Source: Lepas anatifera (Eukaryota > Arthropoda > Thecostraca > Lepadidae). Taken from it: DNA of 64,000 bases. Shown one piece after another: positions 2,137 through 61,500 of this stretch. The notes below the pieces were generated by a model. The model did no database searches. It had not been told where the DNA came from and saw only the letters and a program-made list of their open reading frames with translations. Where the stretch lies: positions 636,001 through 700,000 of the forward strand of contig JAOTON010001078.1 in NCBI GenBank assembly GCA_034440635.1. The letters are read 5' to 3'. The position numbers and the translations under genes are program-made. Position 1 is the first letter of the stretch; the number at the start of each line of letters is the position of its first letter.

Positions 2137-2195
<59 letters not shown>

Positions 2196-5100
2196 ACCCA
2201 CCTTGGCCTGCCGCACCAGGTCCGCCTCCAGCGTCTGAAACAGTCGGGTCAGGTCGTCGTCCTTGCCCGCCTCCTGCGCCTCCTCACGCGACACCACCTC
2301 GAAGTCGGTGCTGGCCTTGCTGCGCTGCTGCGGCGGCACGGGCAGCTGCAGAGGACAGGGGCGTCAGACACCGAGCGTACCAGGGAGCCGCTGCAACCCT
2401 GGCACCGGTGCACCCATGCAGCAGGTGTGGGATCTACAGTGTAACGTAATACTCACGTTCTACCTGGTAATGCTTCCAGAATTGAGACAAAATCCGGTGT
2501 AATAGAATTTCACAAAACGGGCGTGAAATTACACACAAAGTTGTGAGAGCCGGGGAGGGGCAGGCCCTTACTTCGAAAGCAACTGGAGGCCGTTAAACTG
2601 TTCGATTTTACTCAAAAGCAAAATGCCTCTAATTTCCCATTGTTGCCACCCAATTCGTGCATAGTCCCGGTTACTTTTTAAATCGTTTCGAGTCTAAATA
2701 AGAATGGTTCCTTTCCGCATATGCGGCCAGCCTTATCCCTCTCAGCTGTCCACTTGTCCCTAACTCTCCTCTCTCACAGTCAAACCTCACTGGCGTCTGG
2801 TATCTCTGCTGGACCGCTGCTGCCGCGCCTACATCCCACCTATACACCTGCCAAACCCACCACCACACCGATCCCCACAGCAGAGGGCACCGCTTCCGGG
2901 CCTCACCGAGTCCATGTTGACCGGCAGGCCGTGCTGCGTGGCCTCCAGCAGCGGCTCGAACCCCTTGGCGGAGCGCAGGTACTCCTTGGCGGCCACCATA
3001 TCGCCAGCCTTCTTGGCTTGTAGAGCCGCCTGCATGAACATCCGCCGTCGCGACTCCAGCAGCGCCATCTGCTTCTGCTGGCGCGTCTGCTGTCCCGCCG
3101 CTGCAACAGAGGCGGGTCATGTCTGCTGTCCCGCCGCTGCAACAGAGGCGGGTCATGTCTGCTGTCCCGCGGCTGCAACAGAGGCGGGTCATGTCCTCTG
3201 TCTCACCGCTGCAACAGAGGCGGGTCACGTCTGCTGTCCCGCCGCTGCAACAGAGGCGGGTCATGTCTGCTGTCCCGCGGCTGCAACAGAGGCGGGTCAT
3301 GTCCTCTGTCTCACCGCTGCAACAGAGGCGGGTCATGTCTGCTGTCCCGCCGCTGCAACAGAGGCGGGTCATGTCTGCTGTCCCGCGGCTGCAACAGAGG
3401 CGGGTCATGTCTGCTGTCCCGCCGCTGCAACAGAGGCGGGTCATGTCTGCTGTCCCGCCGCTGCAACAGAGGCGGGTCGTGTCTGCTGTCCCGCGGCTGC
3501 AACAGAGGCGGGTCATGTCTGCTGTCCCGCCGCTGCAACAGAGGCGGGTCGCGTCTGCTGTCCCGAGGCTGCAACAGAGGCGGGTCATGTCTGCTGTCCC
3601 GCGGCTGCAACAGAGGCGGGTCATGTCTGCTGTCCCGCCGCTGCAACAGAGGCGGGTCACGTCTGCTGTCCCGCGGCTGCAACAGAGGCGGGTCATGTCT
3701 GCTGTCCCGCCGCTGCAACAGAGGCGGGTCACGTCTGCTGTCCCGCCGCTGCAACAGAGGCGGGTCACGTCTGCTGTCTCACCGCTGCAACAGAGGCGGG
3801 TCATGTCTGCTGTCCCGCCGCTGCAACAGAGGCGGGTCATGTCTGCTGTCCCGCCGCTGCAACAGAGGCGGGTCACGTCTGCTGTCCCTCGGCTGCAACA
3901 GAGGCGGGTCATGTCTGCTGTCCCGCGCTGCAACAGAGGCGGGTCATGTCTGCTGTCCCGCCGCTGCAACAGAGGCGGGTCACGTCTGCTGTCCCCCCGC
4001 TGCAACAGAGGCGGGTCACGTCTGCTGTCTCACCGCTGCAACAGAGGCGGGTCATGTCTGCTGTCCCGCCGCTGCAACAGAGGCGGGTCATGTCTGCTGT
4101 CCCGCCGCTGCAACAGAGGCGGGTCACGTCTGCTGTCCCGCCGCTGCAACAGAGGCGGGTCACGTCTGCTGTCCCGCCGCTGCAACAGAGGCGGGTCACG
4201 TCTGCTGTCCCGCCGCTGCAACAGAGGCGGGTCACGTCTGCTGTCTCACTGCTGCAACAGAGGCGGGTCATGTCTGCTGTCCCGCCGCTGCAACAGAGGC
4301 GGGTCACGTCTGCTGTCCCGCCGCTGCAACAGAGGCGGGTCACGTCTGCTGTCCCGCCGCTGCAACAGAGGCGGGTCATGTCTGCTGTCCCGCGGCTGCA
4401 ACAGAGGCGGGTCATGTCTGCTGTCCCGCCGCTGCAACAGAGGCGGGTCATGTCTGCTGTCCTACCACTGCAACAGAGGCGGGTCATGTCTGCTGTCCCG
4501 CCACTGCAACAGAGGCGGGTCATGTCTGCTGTCCCGCCGCTGCAACAGAGGCGGGTCATGTCTGCTGTCCCGCGGCTGCAACAGAGGCGGGTCACGTCTG
4601 CTGTCCCCGCTGCAACAGAGGCGGGTCATGTCTGCTGTCCACCGCTGCAACAGAGGCGGGTCACGTCTGCTGTCCCGCGCTGCAACAGAGGCGGGTCACG
4701 TCTGCTGTCCCGCCGCTGCAACAGAGGCGGGTCATGTCTGCTGTCCCGCCGCTGCAACAGAGGCGGGTCATGTCTGCTGTCCTACCACTGCAACAGAGGC
4801 GGGTCACGTCTGCTGTCCCCCGCTGCAACAGAGGCGGGTCACGTCTGCTGTCCCGCCGCTGCAACAGAGGCGGGTCACGTCTGCTGTCCCGCCGCTGCAA
4901 CAGAGGCGGGTCACGTCTGCTGTCCCGCCGCTGCAACAGAGGCGGGTCATGTCTGCTGTCCCGCCGCTGCAACAGAGGCGGGTCATGTCTGCTGTCCCGC
5001 CGCTGCAACAGAGGCGGGTCACGTCTGCTGTCCCGCCGCTGCAACAGAGGCGGGTCACGTCTGCTGTCTCACCGCTGCAACAGAGGCGGGTCACGTCTGC

Positions 5101-8100
5101 TGTCCCGCCGCTGCAACAGAGGCGGGTCATGTCTGCTGTCCTACCGCTGCAACAGAGGCGGGTCATGTCTGCTGTCCCGCCGCTGCAACAGAGGCAGGTC
5201 ACGTCTGCTGTCCCACCGCTGCAACAGAGGCGGGTCGCGTCTGCTGTCCCACGGCTGCAACAGAGGCGGGTCATGTCTGCTGTCCTACCACTGCAACAGA
5301 GGCGGGTCACGTCTGCTGTCCCCCCGCTGCAACAGAGGCGGGTCATGTCTGCTGTCCCGCCGCTGCATCAGAGGCGGGTCACGTCTGCTGTCCCACCGGC
5401 TGCAACAGAGGCGGGCCATGTCTGCTGTCTCGCCAGCTTTAACATAGGCGGGTCACGTCTGCTGTCCCGCCGCTGCAACAGAGGCGGGCCATGTCTGCTG
5501 TCCCGCCGCTGCAACAGAGGCGGGTCATGTCTGCTGTCCCGCCGCTGCAACAGAGGCGGGTCACGTCTGCTGTCCCCCGCTGCAACAGAGGCGGGTCACG
5601 TCTGCTGTCCCGCCGCTGCAACACAGGCGGGTCACGTCTGCTGTCCCACCGGTGCAACATAGGCGGGTCACGTCTGCTGTCCCGCCGCTGCAACAGAGGC
5701 GGGCCATGTCTGCTGTCTCACAGCTACAACAGAGGCGGGTTATGTCTGCTGTACCACCACTGCAACAGAGGTGGATCATGTCTGCTGTCCCGCCGCTGCA
5801 ACAGAGGCGGGTCATGTCCTCTGTCTCACCACTGCAACAGTCAGGTCATGTCTGCTGTCCTACCACTGCACGAGAAGGAAATAGTACCGGACTACCGGTC
5901 GTCCGCTGCTCATTCCATGTCTCCATGCGTTCGAACCCTGTCAAAGTAGAGAACAGTTAGGCTATAATAAGTGTTACCGCCTCCAATCCTCCTTGGCAAA
6001 AAAAACATGAGAACATGAGCAGGCTGGGATATAGTTCGCCCTTGCGTTCGACCCCGAACGGACAGTAAACAGCAAACGCAATACTACTGCACGTACTTCA
6101 TTGCCAACAACTAACCTCACTGAGTTACTTTAATCAATACCACGATATCGATTTCAACATCCCACGCCACATGGTACTATGTTCGGTGACTTATCCCTTC
6201 TGTCGTCTTGTAAGGCCTGGTCGTGGTCTCTGCCCACTTCAACATCTGACCAGGTTCTCTGTCTACTTACACATCTGGCTGTAGTCTTTTCTACTTCCAC
6301 ATCTGGCCGTTGTCCATCCACTTACACATCTTGCCCTGGTCTGTGTCCATGTACACATTTGACCGTGGTCTCGTGTCCATTTACACATCTGACCGTGGTC
6401 TGTATCCACTTACACATCTGACCGTGAGCTGTCGTCCACTCAGACATCGGACCGCGGTCTCTGTCCACTTACACATCTGACGCGTGATGCCGGGCTTGAC
6501 CGCCGGTGGCTCTGGCTCCGACTCCTCCTTAGTCTCGGCGGCGGCGGCAGGCGGGGCCGCCGCCCCCTCGGTCGGGATAGGACCGAACCCTGCACACCAC
6601 GCAACGGCTCAGCACGCAGTGTTCCCAACAGGTGAGGTGTACCATCATAAATTATGGCTGAAACGCTTGGCATTGTCATTGTAGCACAGCCTAAGGGCAA
6701 TCACTGCATTTACTTCAGCCAGCCTCGCCTAATTTTACGCTTAATATTATTGCTTTGCGATTGAGGTTATCCAGACGGCCTCGAATATACAGGACTACCG
6801 AACCTTCCACAACCCCTGCCCGCTCCACGTCCTATCCCCACTCCACAGGCACCAACGCCATGCCAGGGGTTCGCCACTGACCGGCGAGGCCCACCACTGA
6901 CCGGTAGGTCCTCAGGGCCCATCACTAGCGGGGGAGGTCTCGACACTGACCGGGAGGGGTCGGCAGCTCGTCGAAGGCGACAGACCGTCCGGCCTCATGC
7001 CGTTTGATGGCGTCCGTGTATTGTTTGCAGATGCGTCCGAACCGGCGCGCCTTGCTGCCGTTGCCCGCCTCTTTCGCCTCGTCTTCCTCTTGCTGCGGCG
7101 GCGACGGCGAAGTGCGTTAGTCCTTCACAGCAGGGTGCCGACACCGTGGAACCAACTTGATCTTAAGCACCAGCCACCACAGGTGTGACACAACAGCACA
7201 CTATCTGGCTGGATCTACCCGCACGTGTACCTGAGAGTCTTGGAGAGAAGGTAGCTAAGGCTGGACCAGATAGCAATCCCTTTTTGGAACACGTTCCCAC
7301 TCAAGGCAGGAAAAGACAATGCCGTGACAATAATACTGCTGATTGCTTCTTCTTTCCTTCACTTCCCCATCGTAACTTAAGCTGTCGATTTCCACTGAGC
7401 GCAGTGTCATTACAGGTCGGTGGCAACGACGAAGAATGGGTTCTGACAGTACTGACCCTGTATGACCGCAATGACCCTATATGACAGCACCGATCCTATA
7501 TGGTAGCAACGCCCCTAAATGACACCACTGACCCTGACTGGCACCACTGACCCTGTACCTTGTAGCGCTGCAGGCGCTGCTGCAGTGCCTGCAGCACGGT
7601 CTGCGGCGCTGGCGGCGCGCCGTACAGCGTGTTGTCCGAGGGTGGGATGCCGTCCGGCGGCACCTCCAGCGGGGTGTCCAGCGGCATCCCGCCGCGCGTG
7701 GAGCCGCCCCGCTGCAGCGGAGGCCGCGCCGCTCCCGACGACGATGACGACGGCGCCGACGGCGGCGGCGGCGGCATGTCGCTGAGGTCCACCGGCTCTC
7801 CAGCCGCCATCGCCGCCAGCACCTGCTCAAACGCCTGAGCGCGCACACAGGACGGCGTCAGACACACTGCTCCGGACACAGGACGGCGTCAGACATACAG
7901 CTCCATACACAGGACGGCGTCAGACACGCGGCACCGCACACAGGGCGGCGTCAGACACGCGGCTCCGCACACAGGACGGCGTCAGACACGCGGCACCGCA
8001 CACAGGGCGGCGTCAGACACGCGGCTCCGCACATAGGACGGCGTCAGACACGCGGCTCCGCACATAGGACGGCTTCAGACACGCGGCTCCGCACACAGGA

Positions 8101-11100
8101 CGGCGTCAGACACGCGGCTCCGCACACAGGACGGCGTCAGACACGCGGCTCCGCCACACACAGGACGGCGTCAGACACGCGCCTCCGCACACAGGACGGC
8201 GTCAGACACGCGGCTCCGCACATAGGACGGCGTCAGACACGCGGCTCCGCACATAGGACGGCGTCAGACACGCGGCTCCGCACACAGGACGGCGTCAGAC
8301 ACGCGGCTCCGCACACCGTCATACATCACTACTAACATAAAGTCTATTCCAAAGATATCAAACATCATCAGGTCAAGTGGCCTCATCTCCAAAAATGTTT
8401 CATGTGGCACTAGTGAAAACATGTTTAATCTATTGATCTAAAATTCACATGATACAATAGACCCACTGAGTAACACATGCTAAGGCAACGGGATTTTTTT
8501 ATATCGATGACCTAGGGTCAGGTACGGGTACCTCTCTATTGGAAATGCTTGCGGAAAAGATTGCAGAATTGGCCGAAAGATTGCTCTATTTTCTGCAGAG
8601 ACGGCTGAACATAACTTTTTTCCTTCAAAATCGTATAATTATAGGTCGCCCTCCAAGGCCATGTTGCAAGTTTGGACCAGTGACCTTTGAGAGGCCATTT
8701 GTGACTATTGAAACGGGTTTTTAGACTTGGATGTATGCTGTGCAGGAAATGGTGAAAACCTTTCGTTTTGATACAATTACGTTTCGATTATCATAGCAAG
8801 CCGATTGATACACATATCCACTATGCATGGTCAAATATTGACCTTGACCTGACCTTACACCAGGTAATTTATACATTTTGACCTAGTATGGACGTGACAC
8901 ATACCAACGAGAAGAATCGAATGACACAAACAGTTTGAATCTAACTCCATTCAGTCAGAGGCTGTGGAAAAATATTCAAACCTATCGTTTTCTTTGATCT
9001 TCCACAGCCTCAATACTGACCTGAGCCAAAAAGTGACCTTTATAGTTTCTTAATAATTAATTATGGGCTATCCATCTACCATCCATTGATGGTTTTCACT
9101 ACCTCGCCTGGGAGCCGAGATCGAAGGGGAGGGGTTCGAACCCCTCCCCCGTCGGGACGGAGGTGGACGGGAGGCCGTCCGAGGCGGGTGTTTATACTAG
9201 CTGGCATCCGGCTGCAATAGCACCACACCGTGCCGGCTGTCTCGGGAGACCAGCGCGGCCGTCTCACCTTGACAACGCGGACGTAGTGCAGCGCCGTCTG
9301 GCGGTCCCCAGCCTTCTTGGCCTGCACGGCGGCGTGTTTGTAAAGGTCACGCCGCCGCTCCACCTCGGCAACGCGCGGGTCGCCGGCGGCAGCAGAGGAA
9401 GACGGTCCGGGCTCCGGCTCCGGCGCTGCCGACGGCTCCGGCTCCGAGACCGCGGCCGGCTCCGGCGCTGAGGACGGCTCCGGAGGCTCGGCGGACGCTG
9501 AAACACGAGGGTTAGGGTCGGCACAGGCAGCGGAGCCGGACGCGGGGCAGGCGGCCAGAGACCGTAACACACGACACTGCGGTTCATCAGTGTCCCGGCA
9601 CGTACCATCTCAGAGCGACGTCAAAATCTGGGAAATAACATGCACACAAAATGCGAGGACTCATACCGTGGACATCATTCTAAAGTTGCAAGGCGATTTA
9701 ATAACAAGTCTCTAATGCGTGTATTAGCCATTAGTTTTGTCCCAAACGTCCACAATCAGGCATGCAAGTTACGGGGACTTGGATTTTTCTTAACAGTTAT
9801 CACGAACTAACAACACATTTAAAGCTCCTAAGTAGGAACATACCCGGCCCGACGCACACGACTGTGGACCCAATTGCCGATGACCGGGAGGGTAGATGGG
9901 AGGAAATTTTTATCATATTGACTGTTTTTGAAGATGCTAACGACGATTCAATTCACCAACACACATTTGTGTACGTGCACGCAAGTAATACGGAGTGAAT
10001 GGAAGACGAGTCTTTAACATTTTTTTTGGGGGGAGGAAAGGGACGTCACCATGAATTACGAGTTGAGGGAAGCGTACCTCCGTCCCCCCGCTTCGATGCC
10101 CAAGCCAGGAATGCTGTCAGCGGCAGTGCTATACGTACGCAATTGGACAAAAATGAAGTACTCAAAGGGATTACTATTCCCTGGAGGCCAGCGACTACTT
10201 TCCTTTAAAATCCAACCCGCAGGCTAGTAGTTTTAAGGTGCCGTCTATAGGAGGTACGTCACCGCAGCCCGCTCCTGCGACCCTGGTAAGAGAAGGCGCT
10301 GACCGTGCTCAGCAGCAGGAGCGGCGGGAGCCGCCGGTTTGTGCGCCGCTCCCGTATACACCGGCGGCGGGATGTCGTCCTCACTGACCACACGGCCGGC
10401 GCGCGCCTTCCTCAGCAGTCCCTCCAGCGTTTTCAGGCCCCGCCCGAACCTGCCGCATGCGGCACACTCAGAACCGAGAACCCGCCGCACACGACACACA
10501 CACTCAGAACCGAGGACCTGCAGCACGCAACACACTCAGAACCGAGGACCTGCAGCACACGACACACTCAGAACCAAGGACATGCAGCACACTCAGACCC
10601 GAGGACCTGCAGCACACTCAGAACCGAGGACCTGCAGCACACGACACACTCAGAACCAAGGACCTGCAGCACCACACTCAGACCCGAGAACTTGCAGCAC
10701 ACTCAGAACCGAGGACCTGCCGCACACGACGCACTCAGAACCGAGGACCTGCAGCACACTCAGACCCGAGGACCTGCGGCACGCAACACACTCGGGAATC
10801 TGCTGTGCACACCACATGCCTTTGACAATTTTTTCCCCAGCAAAAACACAGGCGATGCACTACAGCCCTTGCGCTCTTTCCTTGGCCCGCCCAGACGGGA
10901 GCCCACGTATACACGATTGTGTTAACTAATTATCATTCATCCGGCCATCAGCCAATTGAAACTAATTGGACCCAGCAGCTGCCTCGCGGTGGGCGGACCA
11001 GTCCCAGCACGACCCAAGTCTGAGCGTGCGGAGTGGCAGCCGCGGCGGTGACGGGCCTCTCACCTGCGCGCGCGGCTCGACTGGCCCGCCTCCTTAGCGT

Positions 11101-14100
11101 TGGCCTCAGCCACCCGGTACATCTCCAGCCGCTCCAGCAGCACCGCGCTCAGCTCACCACCCGAGGCGGCAGCGGAAGGGGCGGGGGCGGCAGGGGAAGC
11201 GGCGGGAGCCGGTGCGGGTGGAGCAGCGCGCGCCGGGGCCGGCGGTGGCGCCGCCTCCTCTGTCACCTCTTCCAGCTCAGCCTGAGGGCAACAGAGAAAA
11301 GATTAGGTGATCTCTGAGCGTGCATTAGCACACTTTGATGTCTATACAACATGGAAAATAGCATCTGGGAAACGGCGCGGAAGGAAACGTCTCGCCTTCA
11401 CATGGTTGATCAGCATCCTTTTTTTATTGTACTCACAGTCACATATATACCAGAATCTATCATATTCAAACCACAAAACCATCGTACCGTAGCTCCAGTC
11501 CTTCACTTCCAAGAGACAGGAAACGAGCGATACAGGGTACTAACATCGTCCCGCCTGCACTTTAACACTACAACACAGGTCGGGCTCAGCAGACAGATTG
11601 CAGCGGCATCCGAGCCCTCAGGTGGACGCTCATTACCAGCAGGTCGGGGTCGTTCAGGTCGGCGTCCGACACTTCCACGTCGTCGCCGTCGTCACGGAGT
11701 CCCTCTGCCGCCATGGCGTCGATATCCGCCATCGGCACGCGCGCTCCTGCCGGCGGTTACGAGTCATTTCACCCATAGAGAAGCCGACCAATACGGTGAT
11801 ACCTTGAGAGAAATCATTCGCAACGATTTCCCTAAGCTATGCACTTCAAATTTGTTCATCCCCAAATGGCCTGACACCTACCCTGACAAAACTAAAGGCA
11901 TGCCGAAAACAACCGACCAGAACAGTGAGAACATCACAAAGTGATATATAATTGAATTCCAGGCCTTGGAGGGATGTAGAAAATTACACTAATCTCATCT
12001 CGACCAGTCAGACAGGAGTAAAACAGCATTTCCAACAGGACGGCGCGGGCGGCGGAGTGTTCTGTACACTGACTGCGGTTGGGACGCTCCGACTGGACCG
12101 AGGAGCCGGCCAGCAGTGCCGCCAGCTCATCCTCCAGCGCCGCGTCCGACGCATCCACCTCCATCTCCCCGGAGGCCGCCATCCCGGCCATGTCCGCTCC
12201 CCCGACACTCATCAGACCGTACTGCCGGACACGCGGGCACTCATCAGACCGTACTCCCGGACACGGGAAACCTCATCAGAACCGCACCGCCGGACGGTTG
12301 AAAAATAATAAAACCAAACTGCGAAACAAAGAAAAAAAAAAAAAAAAACCTGCGGAAAAGAGGAAAAAAAAACATCAGACCGTACTGCCGGACAGTTGGA
12401 AACTCATCAGACCGTACTGCCGGACAGTTGGAAACTCATCAGACCGTACTGCCGGACAGTGGGTAAACTCATCATGCCGCACTGCCGGACAGTTGGAAAC
12501 TCATCAGACCGTCTGCCGGACAGTTGGAAACTCATCAAACCGTCTGCCGGACAGTTGCGAAACTCATCAAACCGTACTGCCGGACAGTGGGTAAACTCAT
12601 CAGACCGTACTGCCGGACAGTTGGAAACTCATCCGACCTTACTGCCGGACAGTGGGGAAACTCATCAGACCGTACTGCCGGACACGCAGACACTCATCAG
12701 CCCATACAGGCGGACACACAGGCACTCATCAGACCGTACTTCACAGGCACTCATTACAGTACTTCCGGACACACAGGCACTCATTACAATACTTCCGGAC
12801 ACACAGGCACTCATTACAATACTGTCGCACACACGGGCACTATCACAATACTTCCGGATACACAGGCACTCATCACACCGTACTTCACAGGCACTCATTA
12901 CAGTACTTCCGGACACACAGGCACTCATTACAATACTTCCGGACACACAGGCACTCATTACAATACTGTCGCACACACGGGCACTATCACAATACTTCCG
13001 GATACACAGGCACTCATCACACCGTACTTCACAGGCACTCATTACGGTACTTCCGGACACACAGGCAGTCATCAGACCTTCATACGTGACAAACGGGCAC
13101 TTTTAGCAATGTGCAGCACTGCCTCAAAGTTGACATGCTGTGACTGGCAGCCTAGCGGTCAGCCTTGTAATTACACGCGATGCTTGGGCTAAGCAAAGTG
13201 AGCCGCATTCTCTTTTGATGAGATCAGAAATTGCAGAAAAAGGCTACACTTTTATTCTGAGCGATTGCAGATGGCAGCAGAATGCTGTATCCAGATTTCC
13301 AGATTTATGCTATTCATAAAAATTATCTTTTTATTTCGGCAAGATGGTCCATTCCCTTTAACCCTTGCCCCGGTGGCGGGTAAGAGCCACCTTCGCCCTG
13401 GTGGGGGAGGGGCTAAAAGACCCCCACGATCTCAAAAACTAAGAGAGCTAGAAAAAAGCGCAAAACGGCAATCGAAAGCTCTTCAAAAATGATATCGAAA
13501 ATATTTCAGTCATTTTTCTTGTCAGGTCAATACCCAGGTCACCAGAGGTCAAAATAGGTCAAAATCGCTAAGATGAGGTGTACTAAGAAAACCTCATATA
13601 TCTCAGAAACTATGATAGCTAGAAACATTTTTCCAACGCCATTCAAAAGCTCTTGAGTTTCTCTTTCATTACAGTGGCATTCATTTTCGTGTCAGGTCAA
13701 AGCCTAGGGAGCTACAGGTCACTGAATATTGGGCATATTCTTGGGAATGTCCATAGCCACCCATGCATAAGGGCGTTTCCTTTTTCGCTAATAACTTCCA
13801 AACCAAACAAGATACAGCCATAGTTGATACACCATTGCAATCTTCTCGTCAATACGAATCGAATGATATATAATATTGTTATCCCAGATCAAATTTAAGA
13901 ATTCGACCTGACCCAGGTCAACAGTCTGACCCAACTTGACCTGGTATAGTCATGATGTACATTATTTTTCTTGCAGTGACTATACAAACGCTTTGGTGAC
14001 AAAATAAGTTATATCTTAGTTTATTCAAAATTTATTGAGTAAAACACCAAAAAATGCTTATTTGACCTAAGGTGGCCTTTTAAAGGTCACAAGTAAAAAT

Positions 14101-16067
14101 TTGTGGCATCAACATCAGAAATGGACTAAGAGCAAGTCGTAACCGATGTTTGAAGTTGATTCCATCCATACTTACTGAGAAAAGCTCATTTAGTGATTTT
14201 CTCCATGTATTAACAATGAGGAGGTCATGCTCTGCACATGACCTTAGGTCACCAATATCAAGAATCCCGGAACAAATGTTGTAGCTCCTGGTGGGCCCAA
14301 TATGTGGTATGAGTTTCAACTTCATCAATTAACCCTTCTTTTAGTTGTGCGGTCCTAAGCATTTTTAGGCGAGGTTACTTCACCTGGCCTGGTGACCTGA
14401 CCTGATATGACATTGAACTAAAATTTTCAGAAAAGATGTAAAAATGATGAAGGAACAGCTAGACCAAGTTTGGCGGCGCTGCGCGCCGCCGTTTTTGGTC
14501 CCTTCGGAAAAACCCGAGGGGGTGTCTAAAAAGACACCCCCGGGCGAGGGTTAAACGAAACCTATATAATGAAGCACCGGATTCGAATCCACTCAACGAG
14601 AGAAATAAATTGTTTGTCTTGTTACCCTCTGGTTTATATCATTCTTGTTACACTACGGTTTAAATTTAAATTACACATGACAACATCCATGCCCCACAGT
14701 GCAAATGTCGGCTTTTACTGGAATTAACTTAGCGAACAGGCCAAATCCTCCCCGTTTCCGGCTGCACTCAGCCAGCTTTTGTCATCAGGGCCTCGATTGA
14801 CAGGAAATATTTATTCTTATCCTAAAATTATACGTGGGTGGCCCAGTAAGTTTAAACTTATTAGACATTCGATATTTGATTTTGAACTGATGGCGGGCCT
14901 GATGAATAAGGGCAGGTCTCCATGAATAAGGTGTGTATGTTTATAATCCCTCCAAACCGGGCGGCCGCAAGTTGATTGCCAAAACTGGGCAGAGGCGTAA
15001 TAAAGGAGATGTCACGCCATTCTGGGCCATAAACTGAGCTATCAGGCGCATAAAACAGACCGGAAAATCCCCGGTGGTATATTTCTTTTGTCTTAAATCT
15101 CACACCTTACGGAGAATCAGCGATTCATGAACGTACTTATCTTTAATGAGCAGCTCCTACACTTCTCCGCCCCCTACCCCTCCGAGCCCAACTACCACCG
15201 CCAGTTCGTTGGCAACTGCGGCCGGCGCAGGGCCGGTGGGAACGAAGTCCGTTTTCAACATCCTATTTCTCCACAGATGGTGGGTTCTAGGGCGAATGAA
15301 ATTCTAAGCCAGGTTTTTTTTCAGTATGCTGTATCACCTAGCTATTCAGTTCAAATCATATTATACAGACCTATGCCACACTGCATTTAAGGTTTACTTC
15401 AGAAGACAAACCCGGTGTACATGCTCTTTCCTGCCCTCTTCGGATAATCAACTTGTTTTTTTACGACCGAAAATCACCCCCTCCTTTATTGGTCACGCAT
15501 CTCTGGCATCTCTAATAATGCTATCAAGTCTTAAATGCATTGCTTCGCTATGTATCTAAACAAATAACACCCCTCAAAACAATTAAAAAAAAGGGCGTCA
15601 CGAGAGCGCACCATAATTCCGGCATCGGGAGAGTACCCTCATAATTCGGAGTCAAGAGAGTGCCCTCCTAATTCGGAGTCAAGAGAGGCCCTTCATAATT
15701 CGGCGTTGACAGAGAGCCCTCAAAATTCGACCTCAAGAGAGAATACTCATAATTTATCGTCAAGAAAGACCACCAGTCATAATTCACAGAAGGTCCTCCA
15801 GGTATCTTACTGGTGCCCAGCTCCCCCGATGTCTCAACCCCTTGCAAACCGAATTCCTTTACCTACCCCTAACGCCCCTAACGCCCCTAACCAGGGCTAT
15901 ACTTCACGTGCGCACGATGTCACCATCCTCTGCATGATGCAAATTCACAACTTGTGTTACGATGTATAAGTGCACTGAGCCGTCACAAGTGAAAACCACA
16001 GCAAATATCATTTCCATACCTCCGACAGGTCTCCTTTCCCTGCCTTTGGTCGTCTTCTACCCGCCAT
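1786..16067 (-). CDS. CC2D1A: CC2D1 / lethal(2)giant discs protein, 5' and central part (C-terminal C2 domain outside window)
   Basis: CC2D1/Lgd proteins bind the ESCRT-III subunit CHMP4/Shrub through DM14 domains and control endosomal sorting and Notch signalling (family knowledge). Exons on the minus strand, in transcript order: 16067-16020, 12221-12074, 11746-11637, 11281-11064, 10449-10304, 9497-9268, 7834-7559, 7092-6951, 6589-6473, 3100-2907, 2345-2202, 1961-1786. All have AG/GT borders and matching phases, giving about 650 residues. DM14-1 spans exons 4-5 (about residues 146-205), DM14-2 exons 6-7 (268-325), DM14-3 exons 7-8 (380-440), DM14-4 exon 10 (490-543). Linkers are Ala/Pro/Glu rich. 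Exon 1 encodes MAGRRRPKAGKGDLSE, joined to YGLMSVGG, like the LSQ-FGL start of insect Lgd. The last exon ends FQIVK, just before the C2 domain in relatives, so the gene runs off the left edge. Most introns hold minisatellites anchored at splice sites. Exon 2 and exon 10 acceptors are the least certain because the repeats offer many copies. Confidence 0.92.
2141..2196. repeat. (CT)n microsatellite at the donor of CC2D1 exon 11
   Basis: On the minus strand the donor AAG/GTGGGTGAGAGAGAGAG runs directly into about 26 GA dinucleotides. The repeat begins within 6 nt of the splice site. Confidence 0.93.
3093..5875. repeat. 36-nt minisatellite, about 77 units, anchored at the acceptor of CC2D1 exon 10
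   Basis: The unit on the minus strand is TGTTGCAG/CGGCGGGACAGC followed by AGACRTGACCCGCCTC. Each unit carries the exon-10 acceptor (cctctgttgcag) and the first bases of that exon. Because 36 is a multiple of 3 and units lack stops, very long ORFs exist in several frames on both strands; these are not genes. Variants (one or two base changes, occasional 1-3 nt deletions) are spread unevenly, with runs of identical units showing recent local duplication. Confidence 0.95.
6185..6475. repeat. About 30-nt minisatellite anchored at the donor of CC2D1 exon 9
   Basis: On the minus strand the exon ends CGTCAGATGT/GTAAGTGGAC, and the following units repeat GGTCAGATGTGTAAGTGGA with small changes about 8-9 times. 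Exon end plus GTAAGT donor is thus copied in most units. Confidence 0.88.
6840..6955. repeat. Short repeat of the exon-8 donor
   Basis: On the minus strand CCCG/GTCAGTG of the exon-8 donor recurs as CCGGTCAGTGGTGGGCC and CCGGTCAGTGGCGAACC, with a decayed copy between them. About four units of uneven length. Confidence 0.65.
7435..7560. repeat. About 20-nt repeat anchored at the donor of CC2D1 exon 7
   Basis: Minus strand: AAG/GTACAGGGTCAGTGG followed by GTCAGGGTCAGTGGTGTCA, TATAGGATCGGTGCTGTCA, TATAGGGTCATTGCGGTCA and TACAGGGTCAGTACTGTC. Six diverged units starting at the donor. Confidence 0.75.
7845..8320. repeat. 31-nt minisatellite next to the acceptor of CC2D1 exon 7
   Basis: Unit ACACAGGACGGCGTCAGACA plus CGCGGCTCCGC, about 15 copies. 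The last unit merges into the intron end gtgtgcgcgctcag. The units do not hold a clean acceptor copy, but the array starts within about 10 nt of it. Exon 7 is therefore flanked by arrays on both sides. Confidence 0.9.
8375..9060. mobile_element. AGGTCA-rich element fragment, copy 4
   Basis: Lies in the CC2D1 intron between exons 6 and 7. It shares CTCTCTATTGGAAATGCTTG-type sequence with copy 1 (630-670 there) and AGGTCA/TGACCT motifs (GACCTAGGGTCAGGTACGGG, TTGACCTTGACCTGACCTTA). No TTAA inverted ends are seen, so it is probably a truncated relative. Confidence 0.5.
10455..10800. repeat. Minisatellite anchored at the acceptor of CC2D1 exon 5
   Basis: Minus-strand units read GTGTGCTGCAG/GTCCTCGG TTCTGAGT, copying the acceptor gtgtgccgcatgcggcag/GTTCGGGC. 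About 13 units of two lengths (about 22 and 32 nt). Confidence 0.85.
12205..12715. repeat. 32-nt minisatellite anchored at the acceptor of CC2D1 exon 2
   Basis: Minus-strand unit AACTGTCCGGCAG/TACGGT then CTGATGAGTTTCC; the exon itself starts tgtccggcag/TACGGTCTGATGAGT. About 13 units, with an A-rich interruption at 12300-12372. Each unit holds the acceptor and 15 bases of exon 2. Confidence 0.9.
12715..13080. repeat. Related 30-nt repeats in a higher-order pattern
   Basis: Units such as GTACTTCCGGACACACAGGC, then ACTCATTACA, continue the 32-nt array in diverged form. A block of about 149 nt (about 12740-12888) recurs almost unchanged at 12889-13037, so several units were duplicated together. 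Confidence 0.85.
13368..14554. mobile_element. TTAA-flanked AGGTCA-rich element, copy 2
   Basis: Ends TTAACCCTTGCCCCGGTGGC (13368) and, reverse complement, TTAACCCTCGCCCGGGGGTG (14554). The interior has about 15 AGGTCA/TGACCT motifs and no coding capacity. It lies in intron 1 of the CC2D1 gene. The ends match copy 1, but the interior is only partly similar. Confidence 0.78.
15595..15790. repeat. About 27-nt repeat, seven decayed units
   Basis: Units like CATAATTCGGAGTCAAGAGA plus GTGCCCT, in CC2D1 intron 1, about 230 nt downstream of the exon-1 donor; no splice-site copy is seen in the unit. Confidence 0.8.
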
Positions 16068-16735
16068 TTCCTGGAAGAGAGAAACATTTTTCAGTTCACA
16101 AAGAGTAAGTAGTATAGCTGCATACTGGGACCCGAAGTACATAAATGGTATTGCTACGAGGTATTGCTTGATAGTGCCTATCAAGCAATGCATGCAACAT
16201 CTGCAAGCAAAGATATCTATCAGACCATTTTTCTTATCCGGACATGTACCTAGCAAATGTAAATAATTATACATCATTTTAAAGAAAAGACCTGGAACAT
16301 ATAGCTATATTACCAGCCAGCATAGGTTGAAGCATTAAGAAAAAAACTGCCATAAAATTACTGGTGATCCACCAAGTGCTGTAAACCAGGTGAGCAGGCC
16401 ACCCAGCCAGCTGGTTGAATACCCAGGCTCTGCTAGTTTCCTGTCCGAAACCAGCACCTCAGACATCATGACTGCAGAGTTTGCCATAGTGTTTGCAAAG
16501 CAAATGCTGTCGGATCCTTTGGCTGATCATAAGAGGGCCGTTCAAAATCACACAGAAACAGGCAGCATTAGTGGAGTGGGGAAGGCAAGGGCATTATCTA
16601 ATGGCTAGGATAGTGCAAACAACTACTAAAATTCTGTTAACATATATATGAAGAAAAAAATCATATGTGGATCATAATTATCAAAATGAATGACAAAATC
16701 TGCATTCAGCACCAGACTTGTTGAGCCACAATTCA

Positions 16736-16905
16736 GAGACAAGGTCGACTCCTAGTTGACTCAATTTTAGTTTGGGTCAGAGTCAAGTCAACTCACTTCA
16801 AGATTTGGTTTGAGTCAGAGTCAACCCAATAGCTCAAGCATATGAGCTGAGCCAGAATCAGAGTCAGTCTCCGAGCCATGAATCAAAGTCGAGTCAACTC
16901 AACAT
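16736..16905. repeat. GAGTCA-rich low-complexity block
   Basis: Many copies of GAGTCA and its complement (GTCAAGTCAACTC, GTTTGAGTCAGAGTC, GAGTCGAGTCAACTC). A similar block lies at 23640-23805, just left of element copy 3. Function unknown; probably an old repeat. Confidence 0.5.
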
Positions 16906-17869
16906 ACACATTTTTAGACACCTGTGCTCAAATGAAATTTAGGGTGATCCACCCAGTCAGTAAACCGGTTGTGTAGGGAAATATCTTTGGAGGAAAACTG
17001 GATAACACTTTCCAGTAAAGTACTTTATATTGTAATTATGTGATAACAAATGCTTTAAGGTGTGACGAGGCTCAGTGAGTAGTGCAGATTGACAAACAAT
17101 ACCTCCCTAAATGGGAAGGGAAGGTCAGCAATGCCATTAACCACAGGTGAAGTAAACTTCTCACGACTCTTCTGTTACTTCTGTTAGGCACCTGGTATGT
17201 AGCCCATTTGTTTGCTCATACTGTGGCAGATTCAAAGAGAGTTCAACAAGCTTAGGGATGCCAGATCACCACAAATCCTAAACATTCTGAATGCGAAAAT
17301 TGGAAGGAACAGATCTGAAACTGTCAACAGGTACCTGAGCCAATGTAAAGGAAATGTGGCAGCTTGGTGCCATTCCAGACTGCGGTGGATTTAGAGGCAA
17401 TCTGTGTTGAAAATAATGGATTTGGCCTCATTTTGGCAGAAAAATGCTCATTTGATGATGACCTTGGGCATGTGAGTACCTTGTGAAAAACTATATAAGC
17501 TAGGTTTTAAACTAATATCAACTGCATATTGAGATAGCACCTTAATGGATTGAGGGCTCAGAAATGTGTTGCTGTATGGATATGCATGTTTATCGTCCAA
17601 AAATAATTCAATAGCTAATAAGCCTAATAATTATTTTTCCTTCAGTTAGCAATAAACGTTTCCAAATTACAAACTGGCATATGAACTTGTAATATTTTGT
17701 GCCAGACTGAACCAGTTTGATTTGCACCAAAATTTAAAACAAATAAAAAATGAAAGGTCTTTTTAGCTCTAGCTTTTTTTAGTTAAAAGAAGTTATCATT
17801 AGTAATATACCATATTTATAAAAGGAAAAATTTTCAATTATTTATGCTTTTCTTCATCTGTTAAAACAT

Positions 17870-18450
17870 ATCTCCTGGCGTCGCCGATCTGCAGAGCCTG
17901 ACGTTCCTCCTGCGGTGGGGGTGCGGCGCCGGGCTTTCTCGGATGCGGCGATCATCTGTCTGTCATTTGTAATCACCATCTGTCATCTGTCGGCGTGGGA
18001 TTGGTTCTTCGCCTCCGGCTGGACATCGGGGTGGCGGTGCCTTCTGACCGGGCGGCTCCGCGGGGTCCGGAGAGGGAGGGTCAAAGAATCCGGCTCCTCG
18101 AGTCTGACGGTATGTCCTCTGGGCGGCGGGGCCAGAGGCGATGATTCTTCGGAGGTCTCCGCCGCCGCGGTGCTTCCCGGAGCGGGGTCGGGGAAGTTCT
18201 TCGGCTGCCCAGCCAGTGAGTCGCTCGGCTGCTGATCGGTCGGGATGGCATCCCGGGGCAGGAGTCCGCTGCGGGACGGGGAGCCCAGCTTCTGCTGTCC
18301 GGGTAGACGAGGCGTCGCGCGTTCCGCCGGAGGCGGCGTGGTGGATGGATGGATTGTCAGTCGTCCGGGTCTGCGTTGCTGGTGGGGCCCTGCTCCCCTG
18401 AGCGGTGTCTGTGCACTGTGAGGCCACCTCCGTGTTTTATTGGTTTCGCT
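17870..18450. other. GC-rich island of unknown nature
   Basis: A sharply bounded GC-rich block in AT-rich surroundings, with open frames on both strands (for example a Pro/Ser-rich minus frame of 156 codons). It may be a piece of a retroelement gag-like ORF or an unlinked exon. I see no domain. Confidence 0.3.
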
Positions 18451-19071
18451 CACGTTTTAGATGTGTATTGTTTGTCCCACTCAGGCGTTCTTCATCATCC
18501 TGATTTATTTTTCCATGCACCTGGCCAGTGGGCGTCTGCTGGGCTCAGAGCCTGTGCCCGTCTGGGCGTAATTTAAAGCGCTCACGCCGTCGGCGGTCAC
18601 AGGTTCGGGGCTCAGCGCCTCCAAGTGAAATTTTTCTTTGTCCACCTCAGTCAGCCAGGGCTTGTTTTAGGGTCCCTGTATGTATCATGCATCGCCTGTA
18701 GTGTGAATATATGTGTATGGTTGTAAGAGTTAAAATAGCCAGTAAAGCAAGTTATACACATTTATAATTAACAATACCAAGTCATGTTTAGCTTGTTCGT
18801 TTTTAAGATGTCCCAACATACATACATACATACATACATACGTTTATTTCAACAGGAGCAACATGTACACAAGTGAAGAACAATTTGCTCTCCCAATTGG
18901 CGCAAAAGCGCTAGCGCGCTTGAATCGAGGCACCTCTCGGGTAACAACCTTGAGTAACGCGGTGGCGCCGCCCGTCACCGCACCCCGCCCGACCCCCGCA
19001 CGAGCCCCACACCGCAGCCGAGCGCCAGTAGATCACAGCCGTCACTTGATGATTTTGTCTTGCACTCTCGT

Positions 19072-19410
19072 TTAGTTATCAAATCTTTGGCTAGTTTTTA
19101 CAAACCGAAAGACCTCCTGAGCCACCGCTCGACCAATTTGGGGGTGGAGAGTGCCACCACAAAGCAGTATGTCAGTTTTTAACTTACGGTGGAGATTTTC
19201 AAATTGACCGTCCAGAAGATCGCTGATGTTGTTCATCATAATTTGTCTCTGCAAATCAAACCTTGGGCACTGCAATAGAAAATGTTCGGAGCTCTCGCAG
19301 TAGTATCCGCAAGCGCAGCGGGGAGTTTCAACGCCTTGGATTTTGTATAGATGGCCATTTAGATGCGACATGCCTACTCTCAAGCGAGTCAGGAGAGAGT
19401 TTTCTTTTTT
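19072..19410 (-). CDS. LINE C-terminal zinc-knuckle domain in -1 frame
   Basis: About 110 residues reading ENSLLTRLRVGMSHLNGHL..., with CACGYYCESSEHFLLQCPRF and ending FVKTSQRFDN. Related LINEs carry this Cys/His domain as the C-terminal end of the RT protein. Here it is reached only by a -1 shift from the RT frame at the A AAA AAG heptamer 19404-19410, phased as required for tandem slippage. It is either a programmed frameshift or an indel in an A run. Confidence 0.75.
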   Translation of the reverse strand, partial: KKENSLLTRLRVGMSHLNGHLYKIQGVETPRCACGYYCESSEHFLLQCPRFDLQRQIMMNNISDLLDGQFENLHRKLKTDILLCGGTLHPQIGRAVAQEVFRFVKTSQRFDN

Positions 19411-22400: not shown

Positions 22401-22580
22401 TGATGCGGCCGGTAGCTCAGTTTTGGTCCCCAAAAACGAGTGTTGATCGGTGACGGCCGAATCAAAGGCGCTACAGGTCCGCCGGCGAAGAGGTCCGCCA
22501 GGGTCGGCCGAATGCCGGACGGAGCGGGGCACCCACCGTACGGCTCTGGCACACACAGCGGCACTGGTGAAAAGGTACAC
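19389..22580 (-). CDS. LINE endonuclease / reverse transcriptase polyprotein
   Basis: This is the open reading frame of the retrotransposon described at 18816-22640: 1063 residues without internal stops. Endonuclease lies at about residues 88-310, reverse transcriptase about 560-850 with the FADD box, then a C-terminal region with HFDYGDVIYDG and a typical TSNFSSSFLPSTIKLINKLP tail. It makes a cDNA of its own RNA at a nicked target site. An NPGP motif at residues 78-81 may separate the N-terminal 80 residues during translation. The frame closes at TLS-stop; homologous sequence continues in the -1 frame. Confidence 0.9.
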   Translation of the reverse strand: MYLFTSAAVCARAVRWVPRSVRHSADPGGPLRRRTCSAFDSAVTDQHSFLGTKTELPAASGMYPDTANNLIKAGVETNPGPEEATRHFKLAHVNINSITAGQKRDELELFAESNGIKVLALSETKLDETIHPSRFAINNFQSPLVRHRNRSGGGVAIYFHTSLAATRLPDLEIGDEEWIWAKVRFGKISLVVCSIYIPPNLTSDRHEEFLLNFAESLGNAQRYNPTAVIILGDFNAGNCFLTNTLLKHSPISTFEWKLKSLAESLSLSQLIKDPTRMEGSTHNLRDLIFISDISLVAESGLLSSFSTIDHFPIYLAIEGQATNPRRQQKTIWDYSKLDPQRLTHQLMTTNWNEILDNDTDTATSLFTSTLSKAAEDCIPRKTVPAISRDKSWVTGELKKLIRKRNRLFRIAKTKQEKLGKDEHNHYDWDRWRRSRNEVTKLARQLKSESISKDARLLLEKKHEPHKYHSILRRMTGRSKTIEIPPLQNDNGDLVIDDKAKAELLNQYFAAQTQLPNSNNHDLPNINRENVPPLNMTRITEMEVLKTINGLNQNKSTGPDGIPVRFIKLIAIIIAEPLSLLFNKSVQEGKFPEVWKIATVKPIFKNKGSAADVSSYRPISLLCSISKIFEKIMFRRIYQHLIENDLLTERQSGYRPGHGTHLQLFYITHSLYELLDNGQDVTILYFDISRYFEKIWHKGLLHKCEHEFGLTNILPWLRSYLTDRRQAVQINETKSSLLPLNAGYPQGSVTGPLLALLYLNALSGKTQNEMLFFADDACLISSHNPENIQNMQQLLQNDITQIQTYGHDWLIKFNASKTIQQSFSFRNESEVPNLNFDANPIPVESKHKHLGITLSTDLRFHHHVNYIVRKVIMTLSPLYPIAPYLPREILTQIYKTYVLPHFDYGDVIYDGLLTVDDTQRLERLQNRAARLVTSTLPRTSTENLRRELGWSSLKTRRELHKICFCHRLYQGTTPNYIRRILPATRDNTVNRLLRNARNRNEMPFRTSNFSSSFLPSTIKLINKLPTHITEIESHKSFKKHMNERYHQSEPPEYFSFGTKKKTLS

Positions 22581-22649
22581 AAAGGTGAAAAACTTAAAAA
22601 GACATCCTCGTTGTCAGTGAGATCTCTGCAAAATACATAGGCAGCAATG

Positions 22650-27333: not shown

Positions 27334-27375
27334 TGGGTGGCATCAAGGATGGGTGGTGGTCTCTCCGTAGGCAGA

Positions 27376-41185: not shown

Positions 41186-41227
41186 GTCCGGCCGGAGACC
41201 TGTCGTCGGTGGCCGATTCTCCGTTAC

Positions 41228-41633
41228 CTTCGCCTGTCCTCTGGGCCGTGTGTGGTTGTGTCCTGCGGGCCGCGGCGGGCGGTACAGCGCCAGTCTCCTG
41301 AGCCGTCTGCCCGGCGGCGGCGTCCCGATAGTGCTCCGGCGGGTACTGCTGGTGCCCCGGCGGCAGGGTCTCCCAGACAGGCCCCGACGCCGGCGGTACC
41401 CTGTCGTCGGCCGCAGACCACCGCCGGCGCGCCGGGTACCCCCCGGGCGGGTGTGGCGGCACTCCCGGCGGTACGTAACCCGCTGCCGCCGGGTGCTGCT
41501 GGTACCCGCTGCTGCTGGCGGGGTCGTCAGAGAACCAGTAGACGCTGGAGAAGAAGAGCGCGCTCACCATGAGCGTGGTGAGGGCGGTGAGGCCCGGCGG
41601 GACGACGGCGGCGGCGGCCGTCAGCACGTCCAT
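41228..41633 (-). CDS. Possible exon: membrane segment plus Pro/Tyr-rich tail
   Basis: Starting MDVLTAAAAVVPPGLTALTT, with a hydrophobic stretch (LTALTTLMVSALFFSSVYWF) followed by a Pro/Gly/Tyr-rich region (GYVPPGVPPHPPGGYPARR). A GTAACG donor at 41227-41226 would end the exon. The layout is like the ORF at 37.2-37.6 kb, so the two may be diverged neighbours of one family. Without a second exon this remains weak. Confidence 0.3.
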
Positions 41634-49080: not shown

Positions 49081-49099
49081 CAAAGTCAAACCACCAAGG

Positions 49100-51405: not shown

Positions 51406-51797
51406 GGCTAATCTTCAATAAGACGTCCACTTTCCCGAAAGATTTTCTATAGAAATGATACATTTTCAGGATCAGCAAGACACCCTCTTTCCATTCAGTG
51501 AGGCCCCGTAGCGCCATTCCCACTTAAACCCCGATTTTCAGCACTTATTTAACCTGAACGTCGTAATCGCGCACCGTCCATCGCACATAAATAAACAAAA
51601 CACCGAAGACAATGGCAGTTGATCATCAGTCAGCTTATGGAAACCATCAGCTGACTGATCATCAACCAACTGACGATTGGTACCTTTGTACCAGAGGTAA
51701 ACACCGATGTGAAAGCGTACCAACTCTTGGCTTGGTGCGCCGCAGGCCGGCTCGCTAAATCGAGGCACGGTTAGGTTAGGTTAGGTTAGGTTAGGTT
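51406..51797 (-). repeat. Interspersed repeat, copy B, bordered by (TTAGG)n
   Basis: Reverse-complement relative of 29000-29284 with about 80-120 extra bases in the middle (51600-51720, containing inverted GTTGATCATCAGTCAGC-type sequence). Its outer end at 51765 is followed at once by five copies of GGTTA/TTAGG (51770-51797), the arthropod telomere repeat. Confidence 0.65.
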
Positions 51798-51799
51798 CT

Positions 51800-55520: not shown

Positions 55521-55523
55521 TTT

Positions 55524-58500: not shown

Positions 58501-61500
58501 CGTCCAGAACTCACCCCGAGCCGGGGAGCTCCGGCCGACCCCCTGCTCACCTGCCCTCTGAGTGTAGCTGTTCAGAACGTCCTCCAGGCGGGAGGCGCCG
58601 GCGTCCGCCAGCTCTCCCACTAGATCGTCCAGCGACGACGAGTCGCAGGCATGAGTAGATATGCCGGCATGCAGAAGGTCTGCGCCCTGTCGGTACACGG
58701 GAGACATGTGAAAGCTGCCCCAGAAATGATCAGACCGTTTCAATTTCAACTTTTTTCAATCCAAGTTCAACCAAAGTTTTGTTTTGGTTGGATTCTTTGT
58801 GCGTACACAGGACCTAAACCTAAACAACGCGACGTGGTGGAAACTCCATGGCCTGAGGGAAGTCCGTGTCAGAATCAGATGTTTTCCGTCAAGGGTCCAC
58901 ACTCACGTGGCTTTTCACGATGATACGTCGCGTTGTACAACTCTAAGTGTGTTCAAAATGGGCCGGGGATCAGGACACAGCAAGATATAAATATCATACT
59001 AAAACACAGCAGCCGTGACCATAGAAGTAACAATACATTGCACTAGATATCTTGTCCTGTCAAAGCATAACTCGTTAAAAAGTTTGACACCACGATAACA
59101 TAGCCGTCGTCTGTCCGCTTCTGTCCTGATGCGGGGTAGAGTCAGTTGGTTTGATCATAGTGTGTTCTCCAATTCCGAAAGTATTAGCAATGGACGGCGG
59201 CTGCCCCATCTCTATAGCCTGGTACACCGCACATAGAGTGTGATATTGCACATCAAATACACATGCACTGGGAACAGAGCCTATATAAGAAGAATAACGC
59301 ACCCTTAGTATGGGATTTAAACGCAAATAGGTGACTGAGCATACCAAACAAAACCCAGTTTTAGCCATTCACTCCAGAGCACACCATTTGCAAAAACAAC
59401 AAAATGCTTTAAGAGCGGCACCCGTTCCCACCAGCTGCGGGCACGCACCCGTCACCACCGAAGAGCCGACGCCGGCCGCTATACCCCTGCTGGTCCTCCA
59501 CTACCCTGGCTATACCCCTGCTGGTCCTCCACTACCCTGGCTATACCCCCTGCTGGTCCTCTACTACCCCGGCTATACCCCCTGCTGGTCCTCCACTACC
59601 CTGGCTATACCCCTGCTGGTCCTCTACTACCCTGGCTATACCCCTGCTGGTCCTTCACTACCCTGGCTATACCCCTGCTGGTCCTCCACTACCCTGGCTA
59701 TACCCCTGCTGGTCCTCCACTACCCTGGCTATACCCCTGCTGGTCCTCCACTACCCTGGCTATACCCCCTGCTGGTCCTCCACTACCCTGGCTATACCCC
59801 TGCTGGTCATCCACTACCCTGGCTATACCCCCTGCTGGTCCTCTACTACCCCGGCTAAACCCCTGCTGGTCCTTCACTACCCTGGCTATACCCCTGCTGG
59901 TCCTCCACTACCCTGGCTATACCCCTGCTGGTCATCCACTACCCTGGCTATACCCCTGCTGGTCCTCTACTACCCCGGCTATACCCCTGCTGGTCCTCCA
60001 CTACCCTGGCTGTACCCCTGCTGGTCCTCTACTACCCTGGCTATACCCCTGCTGGTCCTTCACTACCCTGGCTATACCCCTGCTGGTCCTCCACTACCCT
60101 GGCTATACCCCTGCTGGTCCTCCACTACCCTGGCTATACCCCTGCTGGTCATCCACTACCCTGGCTATACCCCTGCTGGTCCTCTACTACCCCGGCTATA
60201 CCCTTGCTGGTCCTTCACTACCCTGGCTATACCCCCTGCTGGTCCTCCACTACCCTGGCTATACCCCTGCTGGTCCTCCACTACCCTGGCTATACCCCTG
60301 CTGGTCATCCACCACCCTGGCTATACCCCTGCTGGTCCTCCACTACCCTGGCTATACCCCTGCTGGTCCTCCACTACCCTGGCTATACCCCTGCTGGTCA
60401 TCCACCACCCTGGCTATACCCCTGCTGGTCCTCCACTACCCTGGGTATACCTTGAGTCGGTGTCCGGTGAGCGCCAGAAACAGGCCCAGCCGGCCCTTCA
60501 GCCGCGGCAGGAAGTGGGAGCCGCCCACGTCCGGGAACAGCCCGATCGCCGTCTCCGGCATCGCGAACATACTCCTCTCCGTGCACACCCGGTACGGACC
60601 TGGCGCGGGAGAGTCCAACTCAGGGCGGGAGGGGGAGTCCGACTCAGAGCGGGAGGGGGAGTCCGGCTCAGAGCGGGAGGGGAGTCCGGCTCAGAGCGGG
60701 AGGGGCAGACGAATCAGAGTGGAAGGGAGTCCGACTCAGAGCGGGAGAGAGTCCGACTCAGGGCGGGAGGGGGAGACGAATCAGAGCGGGAGGGGGAGTC
60801 CGACTCAGGGCGGGAGGGGGAGACGAACCAGAGCGGGAGGGTGTCAGACTCAGAGCGGGAGGGGGAGACGAATCAGAGCGGGAGGGAGCGCCCAGCCACA
60901 GCGTGACGGCAACACTTATGGGATACACTTTCCGGGACTGATTGGGACAGAAAGGAATCAAGTAAGCTAAAACACTGACCCGCCAGAGGAAAACTGAGAA
61001 TAGACCTTAATCCAGATTTCCACTAGTGACAAAATATTCTAAGTAGACCGCATTTTCGATAATAATTCTTATTTACATTACCATAGATTCTTTTCGATAG
61101 AATACATTTCCCACGGACTCATCAAGCCCAGGTGGTTATTAATAATTTTGCTCCCTGAAAGCACGCAAGATAGACTATCAAAAATATGTTAAAAGCCTCA
61201 TTCCTCATGATCATGCACACTTCCACAGACATAATTCTATACAAAAATCCAATCACCAGAGAACACAATAAGGCATACTGCCGCATGCCCCACTAAAGCA
61301 GTCGCAATATGACCTGGGGAGACGGCAGCGGGCAAGTGGTGTTCGGGAAAATTTAACTGACCGTAAACTGAGAGCCCCCCCCCACCATTGACAGGCAGTT
61401 GGTGTTCGGGAGACTGTTCCACTGACCGTGCACAGAGAGGCCGCAGCCGCCGCCCATGACGATGCCGTGCTGCAGAGCCACGTACGGCACCTTCAGACTC

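Follow-up and report, generated by a model that had tools for sequence, protein, structure and literature searches.

Minisatellite-like tandem duplications of exon/intron boundaries were described in 2 globin genes of amphioxus and named mirages, with Adh3 and other loci cited as further cases (PMC3087553), and a later report added PGBD5 and cited troponin C (PMC3902484). According to these 2 reports, the repeats are located on the donor or the acceptor side, have units of 10 to 160 bp, and affect 1 to 2 boundaries per gene with few copies, the BflGb6 haplotypes containing 3 and 6 units and PGBD5 containing 2 to 7. Copy numbers differ between haplotypes, regular splicing was suggested by reverse transcription PCR, and a route to new introns was proposed (PMC3087553). 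Here, we describe a window of 64,000 nucleotides (nt) from the Lepas anatifera assembly GCA_034440635.1 (contig JAOTON010001078.1, positions 636,001 to 700,000 of the forward strand; coordinates below are those of the window), in which tandem repeats are concentrated at the exon borders of the CC2D1 and HIBCH genes and, at several of these borders, contain copies of the splice junction itself. Like the mirages in BflGb6/BflGb9, Adh3, troponin C, and PGBD5, these are boundary-spanning tandem copies, many of which carry AG or GT, in genes that appear intact, although the resemblance was assessed here from DNA alone. Unlike the amphioxus mirages, the repeats involve 11 boundaries in 2 of 3 genes within a single window, they reach up to approximately 76 copies, some of them abut the junction without containing it, and they perhaps belong to another phylum. 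A further case is the minisatellite in intron 7 of the human factor VII gene, a single locus at which a donor-bearing unit is repeated from the exon.

The repeats also share features with intron gain by tandem genomic duplication, in which a splice-like sequence is duplicated while the coding message is kept, but in that process a new intron is formed inside an exon, whereas here an existing intron grows (reviewed in PMC3443670). Repeat expansion has likewise been reported to alter the exon-intron structure in Cryptococcus (PMC2395259) and in human segmental duplications (PMC2812944), although these accounts concern whole introns or exonic repeats that have been multiplied, whereas here the junction is copied into the intron. 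No junction copies are described in the available parts of the papers on earthworm metallothionein intron repeats (PMC12783039) and on the dopamine transporter (PMC2883569), and no genome-wide account of mirages was found in the literature searched, which left most subscription journals outside its coverage. The author of a preliminary description of this DNA had been aware of no earlier account of the phenomenon at this scale. Since the amphioxus mirages, including those in Adh3, troponin C, and PGBD5, had already been named, the kind of structure is known, and what is new is its density, the acceptor array of approximately 76 copies, and possibly the lineage.

The exons of CC2D1, HIBCH, and MCEE were mapped to the minus strand of the window, on which the repeats of these genes are given, using human CC2D1A, HIBCH, and MCEE probe sequences, and were modelled from homology, GT/AG signals, and phase. 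The models cover exons (E) 2 to 12 of CC2D1, 1 to 7 of HIBCH, and 2 to 4 of MCEE, which amounts to 21 exons, 39 junctions, and 18 closed introns, and the exon numbers agree with those assigned previously. The modelled frames of 633, 368, and 143 codons, respectively, are free of internal stop codons and the genes therefore look functional. Furthermore, the DM14 domains of CC2D1 were matched by Pfam in a scan of 2 frames.

A comparison of each junction with all other junctions had been proposed in the preliminary description and was run here inside the window, by aligning 30 exon and 30 intron bases, with gaps, to the junction's own intron. Eleven of the 39 junctions matched their own intron better than did every other junction of the same type, as compared to 2.0 expected. 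These were the E2, E5, E7, and E10 acceptors and the E7, E8, E9, and E11 donors of CC2D1, and the E3 acceptor and the E2 and E3 donors of HIBCH. All of the previously named ends in these 2 genes were thus recovered, while the suggested spread to a third gene was not supported, in that none of the MCEE junctions was among the 11 and the donor proposed for a small gene next to MCEE found no support.

At 5 of the 11 junctions, the copied stretch spanned at least 7 nt of the exon. The exon content was highest at the E2 acceptor of CC2D1 (modelled exon 12074-12221) with 18 nt, where the array at 12204-13078 consists mainly of units of 30 to 32 nt with CCGGCAG/TACGGTCTGATGAGT (slash, exon border), that is, the acceptor followed by up to 18 nt of the exon. 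It was 17 nt at the E10 acceptor (modelled exon 2907-3100), where a 36-nt unit is present in approximately 76 copies at 3084-5870, with CCGCCTCTGTTGCAG/CGGCGGGACAGCAGAC, of which 16 to 17 nt are exonic under the adopted model. The E2 donor of HIBCH, ACG/GTCAGT, is followed by one diverged copy 65 nt further on (61331-61442), seen in a gapped alignment of 43 nt that includes 16 exonic ones. A content of 15 nt was observed at the E9 donor of CC2D1, over which a 29-nt array with GTCAGATGT/GTAAGTGG is located at 6222-6487, several of the copies being candidate donors, and 7 nt at the E8 donor, where CCG/GTCAGTG is followed by 2 more copies at intron positions +49 and +69 (6870-6957). The HIBCH E2 and CC2D1 E8 cases are duplications of 2 and 3 copies, respectively, and not arrays.

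The copies were also examined in a register test that was anchored on the intron side, with the exon side read ungapped. The exon identity over 10 nt was 0.65 for the E2 acceptor, 0.87 for the E10 acceptor, and 0.82 for the E9 donor, each with a p value of 0.0005, which is the floor of the test. The p value for the E5 acceptor was 0.007 over 4 nt and rose to 0.067 over 10 nt, and that for the E7 acceptor was 0.0075 over 8 nt. The evidence for the HIBCH E2 and CC2D1 E8 donors comes from the gapped alignment, and the second copy at HIBCH E2 was seen only there (score 35, best other junction 29) because gaps are needed. With an exon content that varies from 18 to 0 nt, true junction copies coexist with arrays that do no more than begin at the junction, and the earlier statement that each array was made from its own junction was therefore too broad. 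The units of different arrays are unrelated, as noted previously. A p value of 0.01 or lower was reached by only 3 of the 120 pairs of units, and one of these 3 represents 2 parts of the same array region. A single dispersed satellite was rejected on these grounds, since the arrays have no unit in common.

The position of the repeats was analyzed with Tandem Repeats Finder (TRF), counting arrays with a period of at least 10 and a score of at least 50. In total, 24 such arrays were identified in the window, 9 of which were located in modelled introns or open flanks, 2 in exons, and 13 outside the gene models. In 8 of the 9 intronic arrays the edge was at most 25 nt from a junction (7 within 20 nt and 4 within 10 nt), with offsets of -16, -15, 23, 7, -4, -18, -1, and 7 nt, where a negative value means that the array extends into the exon. 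When arrays were placed at random in these introns, an average of 0.71 reached a border (p <= 5e-5). The ninth array was separated from MCEE E2 by 898 nt on the upstream side, a part in which the model is open-ended. A TRF-independent scan of the 3 gene regions for ungapped diagonal self-matches at offsets of 12 to 150, with a threshold that yielded an average of 0.67 false matches in each of 3 shuffled passes, identified 15 duplication zones, 3 of which were exonic. Among the 12 non-exonic zones, 10 were located no more than 25 nt from a junction, as compared to 1.33 expected (p 2e-4), and only 2 were located in the middle of an intron. The best periods of the 3 exonic zones were 21, 42, and 12, all of which are multiples of 3, and both methods detected in-frame tandem repeats of 24 nt within exon 6 (9410-9483) and 21 nt within exon 4 (11165-11209) of CC2D1. 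The main unit length was not a multiple of 3 in 7 of the 8 junction arrays.

We consider it probable that these repeats are mirages, produced by tandem duplication at exon borders and sorted by selection. Short tandem duplications would arise often in and beside the exons of this genome. Within exons, selection would allow only in-frame duplications to survive, whereas one that begins at a junction or extends across it would survive as long as the exon-proximal copy stays the site that is used, because the remainder is then intron. Some of the duplications may expand by unequal exchange or slippage to as many as approximately 76 copies and thereby lengthen the intron, and the HIBCH E2 and CC2D1 E8 duplications have the appearance of early stages. 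The unit lengths inside exons and at junctions would fit a single duplication process that is subject to 2 filters, the reading frame inside exons and exon-proximal splicing at their borders. Selection does not account for the small number of mid-intron zones, which suggests that the mutations themselves occur preferentially at exon borders.

Several observations weigh against this explanation. The exon content is marginal at the E5 acceptor, with 2 nt (10446-10793; units with TGCAG/GTCC and 2 to 4 nt of exon, the junction being placed by CC2D1A homology), and at the HIBCH E3 donor, with 1 nt, from which a 31-nt array of 31 copies extends (59478-60451). It is zero at the E7 acceptor, where a 31-nt array with units lacking AG ends 7 nt before the junction (7842-8316), at the E7 donor, from which a 19-nt array starts with GT not in register (7444-7557), and at the HIBCH E3 acceptor, where a pyrimidine-rich 23-nt array ends 3 to 7 nt before the junction (60603-60909). 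It is also zero at the E11 donor, where the repeat identified by TRF, 6 nt inside the donor, is a (GA)n microsatellite (2140-2195) and not a junction copy. The register test provided no support for the E8 donor (p 0.074 over 8 nt) or the HIBCH E2 donor, and it detected nothing at the E7 and E11 donors or at the HIBCH E3 donor and acceptor. When only exon bases were matched over whole introns, a procedure with little power, the outcome was not significant overall; the Fisher p values for all 39 junctions were 0.15, 0.33, and 0.88 for 12, 16, and 20 nt, respectively, and 2 of the 39 junctions, the E2 and E10 acceptors, were at p <= 0.01. The contrast in unit length is weak, since 6 of 8 units outside the gene models are also multiples of 3, and the same is true of some of the longer periods that TRF assigned to the junction arrays (30, 57, and 144). 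Furthermore, the basis is one window with 3 genes, and the copy thresholds were picked by the analyst.

The placement of the junctions also matters. The E5, E7, and E8 junctions of CC2D1 and the E2 and E3 junctions of HIBCH were placed by homology in alignments that were near gap-free as judged by eye. The E9 and E10 junctions were chosen by frame and signal, not by homology, so that these 2 cases of exon spanning depend on the adopted model, in which phase and signal agree. An alternative E9 donor at +50 (score 8.8 in a local position weight matrix, PWM) with an E10 acceptor at +26 (PWM score 5.1) is in phase and open, and if this pair is adopted, the E10 unit contains no exon bases, which again speaks against junction copying. 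E9 could extend to the copies that lie 50 or 59 nt downstream with an open frame, paired with weaker phase-matched E10 acceptors, and a second E9 donor of the same phase is located 9 nt upstream. The E2 acceptor of CC2D1 was placed by signal strength and is the best AG in its surroundings. Exon 1 was sought by its start codon and a basic-residue pattern from 12300 to 19390 and was not found, and E2 may itself be the first exon, which would likewise count against a copied acceptor.

In the absence of junction copying, minisatellites might arise anywhere in the introns, with purifying selection on the exon fixing the point at which the array ends. This fits the E7 acceptor, the E7 donor, and both HIBCH E3 arrays, the edges of which are at most 8 nt from the junction and include 0 to 1 exon base. 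We nevertheless regard it as unlikely, as arrays placed at random do not reach a border in 8 of 9 cases, the copied stretch includes 7 to 18 nt of exon at 5 junctions, and the middle of the intron, which should be the freest place for arrays, holds only 2 of the 12 zones. Another explanation is that GC-rich exons and the first 50 nt of the introns breed minisatellites and that the junction plays no part. The GC content does decrease from 0.67 in exons to 0.54 to 0.63 within 50 nt of the junctions and 0.42 to 0.52 deeper in the introns, and it is 0.60 to 0.69 in 5 of the 8 junction arrays. However, it is only 0.50 to 0.51 in the other 3, and when the null was limited to GC-rich intron windows, the border excess remained at P <= 2.5e-3, the least favourable value being obtained with windows of GC >= 0.7 and one unit restored per zone, where 10 of the 12 zones were still at a border. 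A GC hot spot is thus quite improbable, and border duplication remains the explanation that we favour.

It had been suggested that most units keep a usable GT or AG. With the chosen thresholds, this is true of the pooled set, in which 118 of 128 junction copies over 7 junctions retain the signal, and of the copies at the E2 acceptor (9 of 10), the E10 acceptor (66 of 67), the E8 donor (2 of 2), and the HIBCH E2 donor (1 of 1), as well as the HIBCH E3 donor, where GT was kept in 30 of 30 copies, the 31st match being the junction itself. A looser threshold yielded 76 E10 copies and 15 E2 copies. Within the pooled set, the share is lower at the E5 acceptor (only 5 of 10) and the E9 donor (only 5 of 8). 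The suggestion does not extend to 3 other sets in which the signal was mostly absent (1 of 25 in total), namely the E7 acceptor (AG in 0 of 13), the E7 donor (GT in 0 of 4), and the HIBCH E3 acceptor (1 of 8), where the only copy with AG falls outside the array. According to a weight matrix derived from the locus's own junctions, 58 of the 67 E10 copies equal or exceed the real site in score, while the 30 HIBCH E3 donor copies all fall short of the real donor.

The use of any inner copy would add at least 31 nt to the message. In the adopted models, 66 of the 118 copies with GT or AG would cause a frameshift and 52 an in-frame stop, with none leaving the message unchanged or open in frame, whereas under the alternative E9/E10 pairing the frame stays open when E9 is extended by 50 or 59 nt. 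The preliminary description had argued that the copies are neutral because splicing from the inner or the outer site gives the same mRNA. Since inner use never does so, that argument fails, and tolerance requires that the exon-proximal site wins.

The AG or GT columns of the 2 large arrays changed less than the mean of the other non-CpG columns (0.7% vs. 3.0% for E10 and 0% vs. 3.1% for the HIBCH E3 donor), and in a gapped alignment of the E10 array the change was 0.9% in the block of pyrimidine tract plus AG, 4.7% in the exon-derived part, and 7.2% in the upstream part. Part of the difference for the tract and AG in the ungapped count came from units with indels, and the lower change rate of this E10 block was set aside as evidence, because it stems mostly from one two-state column and from columns with CpG. 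The somewhat lower change of the splice columns in both large arrays is likewise due mainly to CpG and a few variable columns, and in the E9 array these columns vary no less than the others. That the repeats are kept because repeated branch points, pyrimidine tracts, splice signals, or G-rich tracts aid exon recognition is very unlikely, for although the E10 unit contains a pyrimidine tract and an AG that is nearly always retained, with most copies scoring no lower than the real site, and although the signal columns of the large arrays change less, the block differences come mostly from the columns given above, the E9 splice columns are no slower, the signal is missing from several arrays, which either lost it or never had it, and under the adopted models the protein would be disrupted if inner copies were used.

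A broader version of border duplication would hold that splice junctions outside the cephalochordates are hot spots of tandem duplication, that border duplication is the main form of intron growth in this genome, and that rows of nearly identical splice sites, such as the approximately 76 acceptors in one intron, are tolerated because the choice of the exon-proximal site is almost perfect; this is conceivable, and we put it forward as a doubtful extension. Should the excess at borders hold across the genome, intron growth by this neglected route would become measurable. The locus would also offer a natural test of splice-site choice, with dozens of equally strong acceptors of which only the last one gives an intact protein, and it could extend mirages beyond the lancelets.

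A weak duplication of 85 to 87 nt was also noted at 1638-1786, from or near the E12 donor of CC2D1, and was rejected as a junction copy, as the sequence 85 nt further on failed to beat the other junctions. The small gene next to MCEE consists of a single unbroken open reading frame (ORF) at 41178-41633 on the minus strand, proline/tyrosine-rich and with a membrane segment recognized by eye, which starts with an ATG at 41633 and ends with a TGA at 41177-41175. The previously proposed donor is not supported, because the minisatellite begins right at the TGA codon; its 29-nt repeats directly follow the coding part at 40952-41177, to 41107 by TRF and for the rest by eye. Another ORF on the minus strand at 37224-37700, with a membrane segment and a tyrosine-rich tail by eye, is perhaps related to the ORF at 41.2 to 41.6 kb and had no Pfam match at an E value of 0.1. 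Large minisatellites of 30 and 29 nt are located outside the gene models at 38862-39512 and 40067-40894, respectively.

No matches in the window were obtained with Rfam, at the gathering threshold, or with ARAGORN. Arrays of (AACCT)n and (GGTTA)n, which represent the TTAGG motif, are located beside or between genes at 27375-27513 and 51769-51797. Lancelet telomeres use another motif. TTAGG is the telomere motif of arthropods (PMC8977481), and the presence of such arrays suggests an arthropod. An intronless ORF for GLO1 (lactoylglutathione lyase) at 34800-35333 on the plus strand can be aligned along almost its entire length to lactoylglutathione lyases of solved structure and is possibly a retrocopy or an intron-poor gene. 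Finally, an uninterrupted ORF of 1074 codons, of the long interspersed nuclear element (LINE) type and with endonuclease and reverse transcriptase domains, is located at 19392-22613 on the minus strand.

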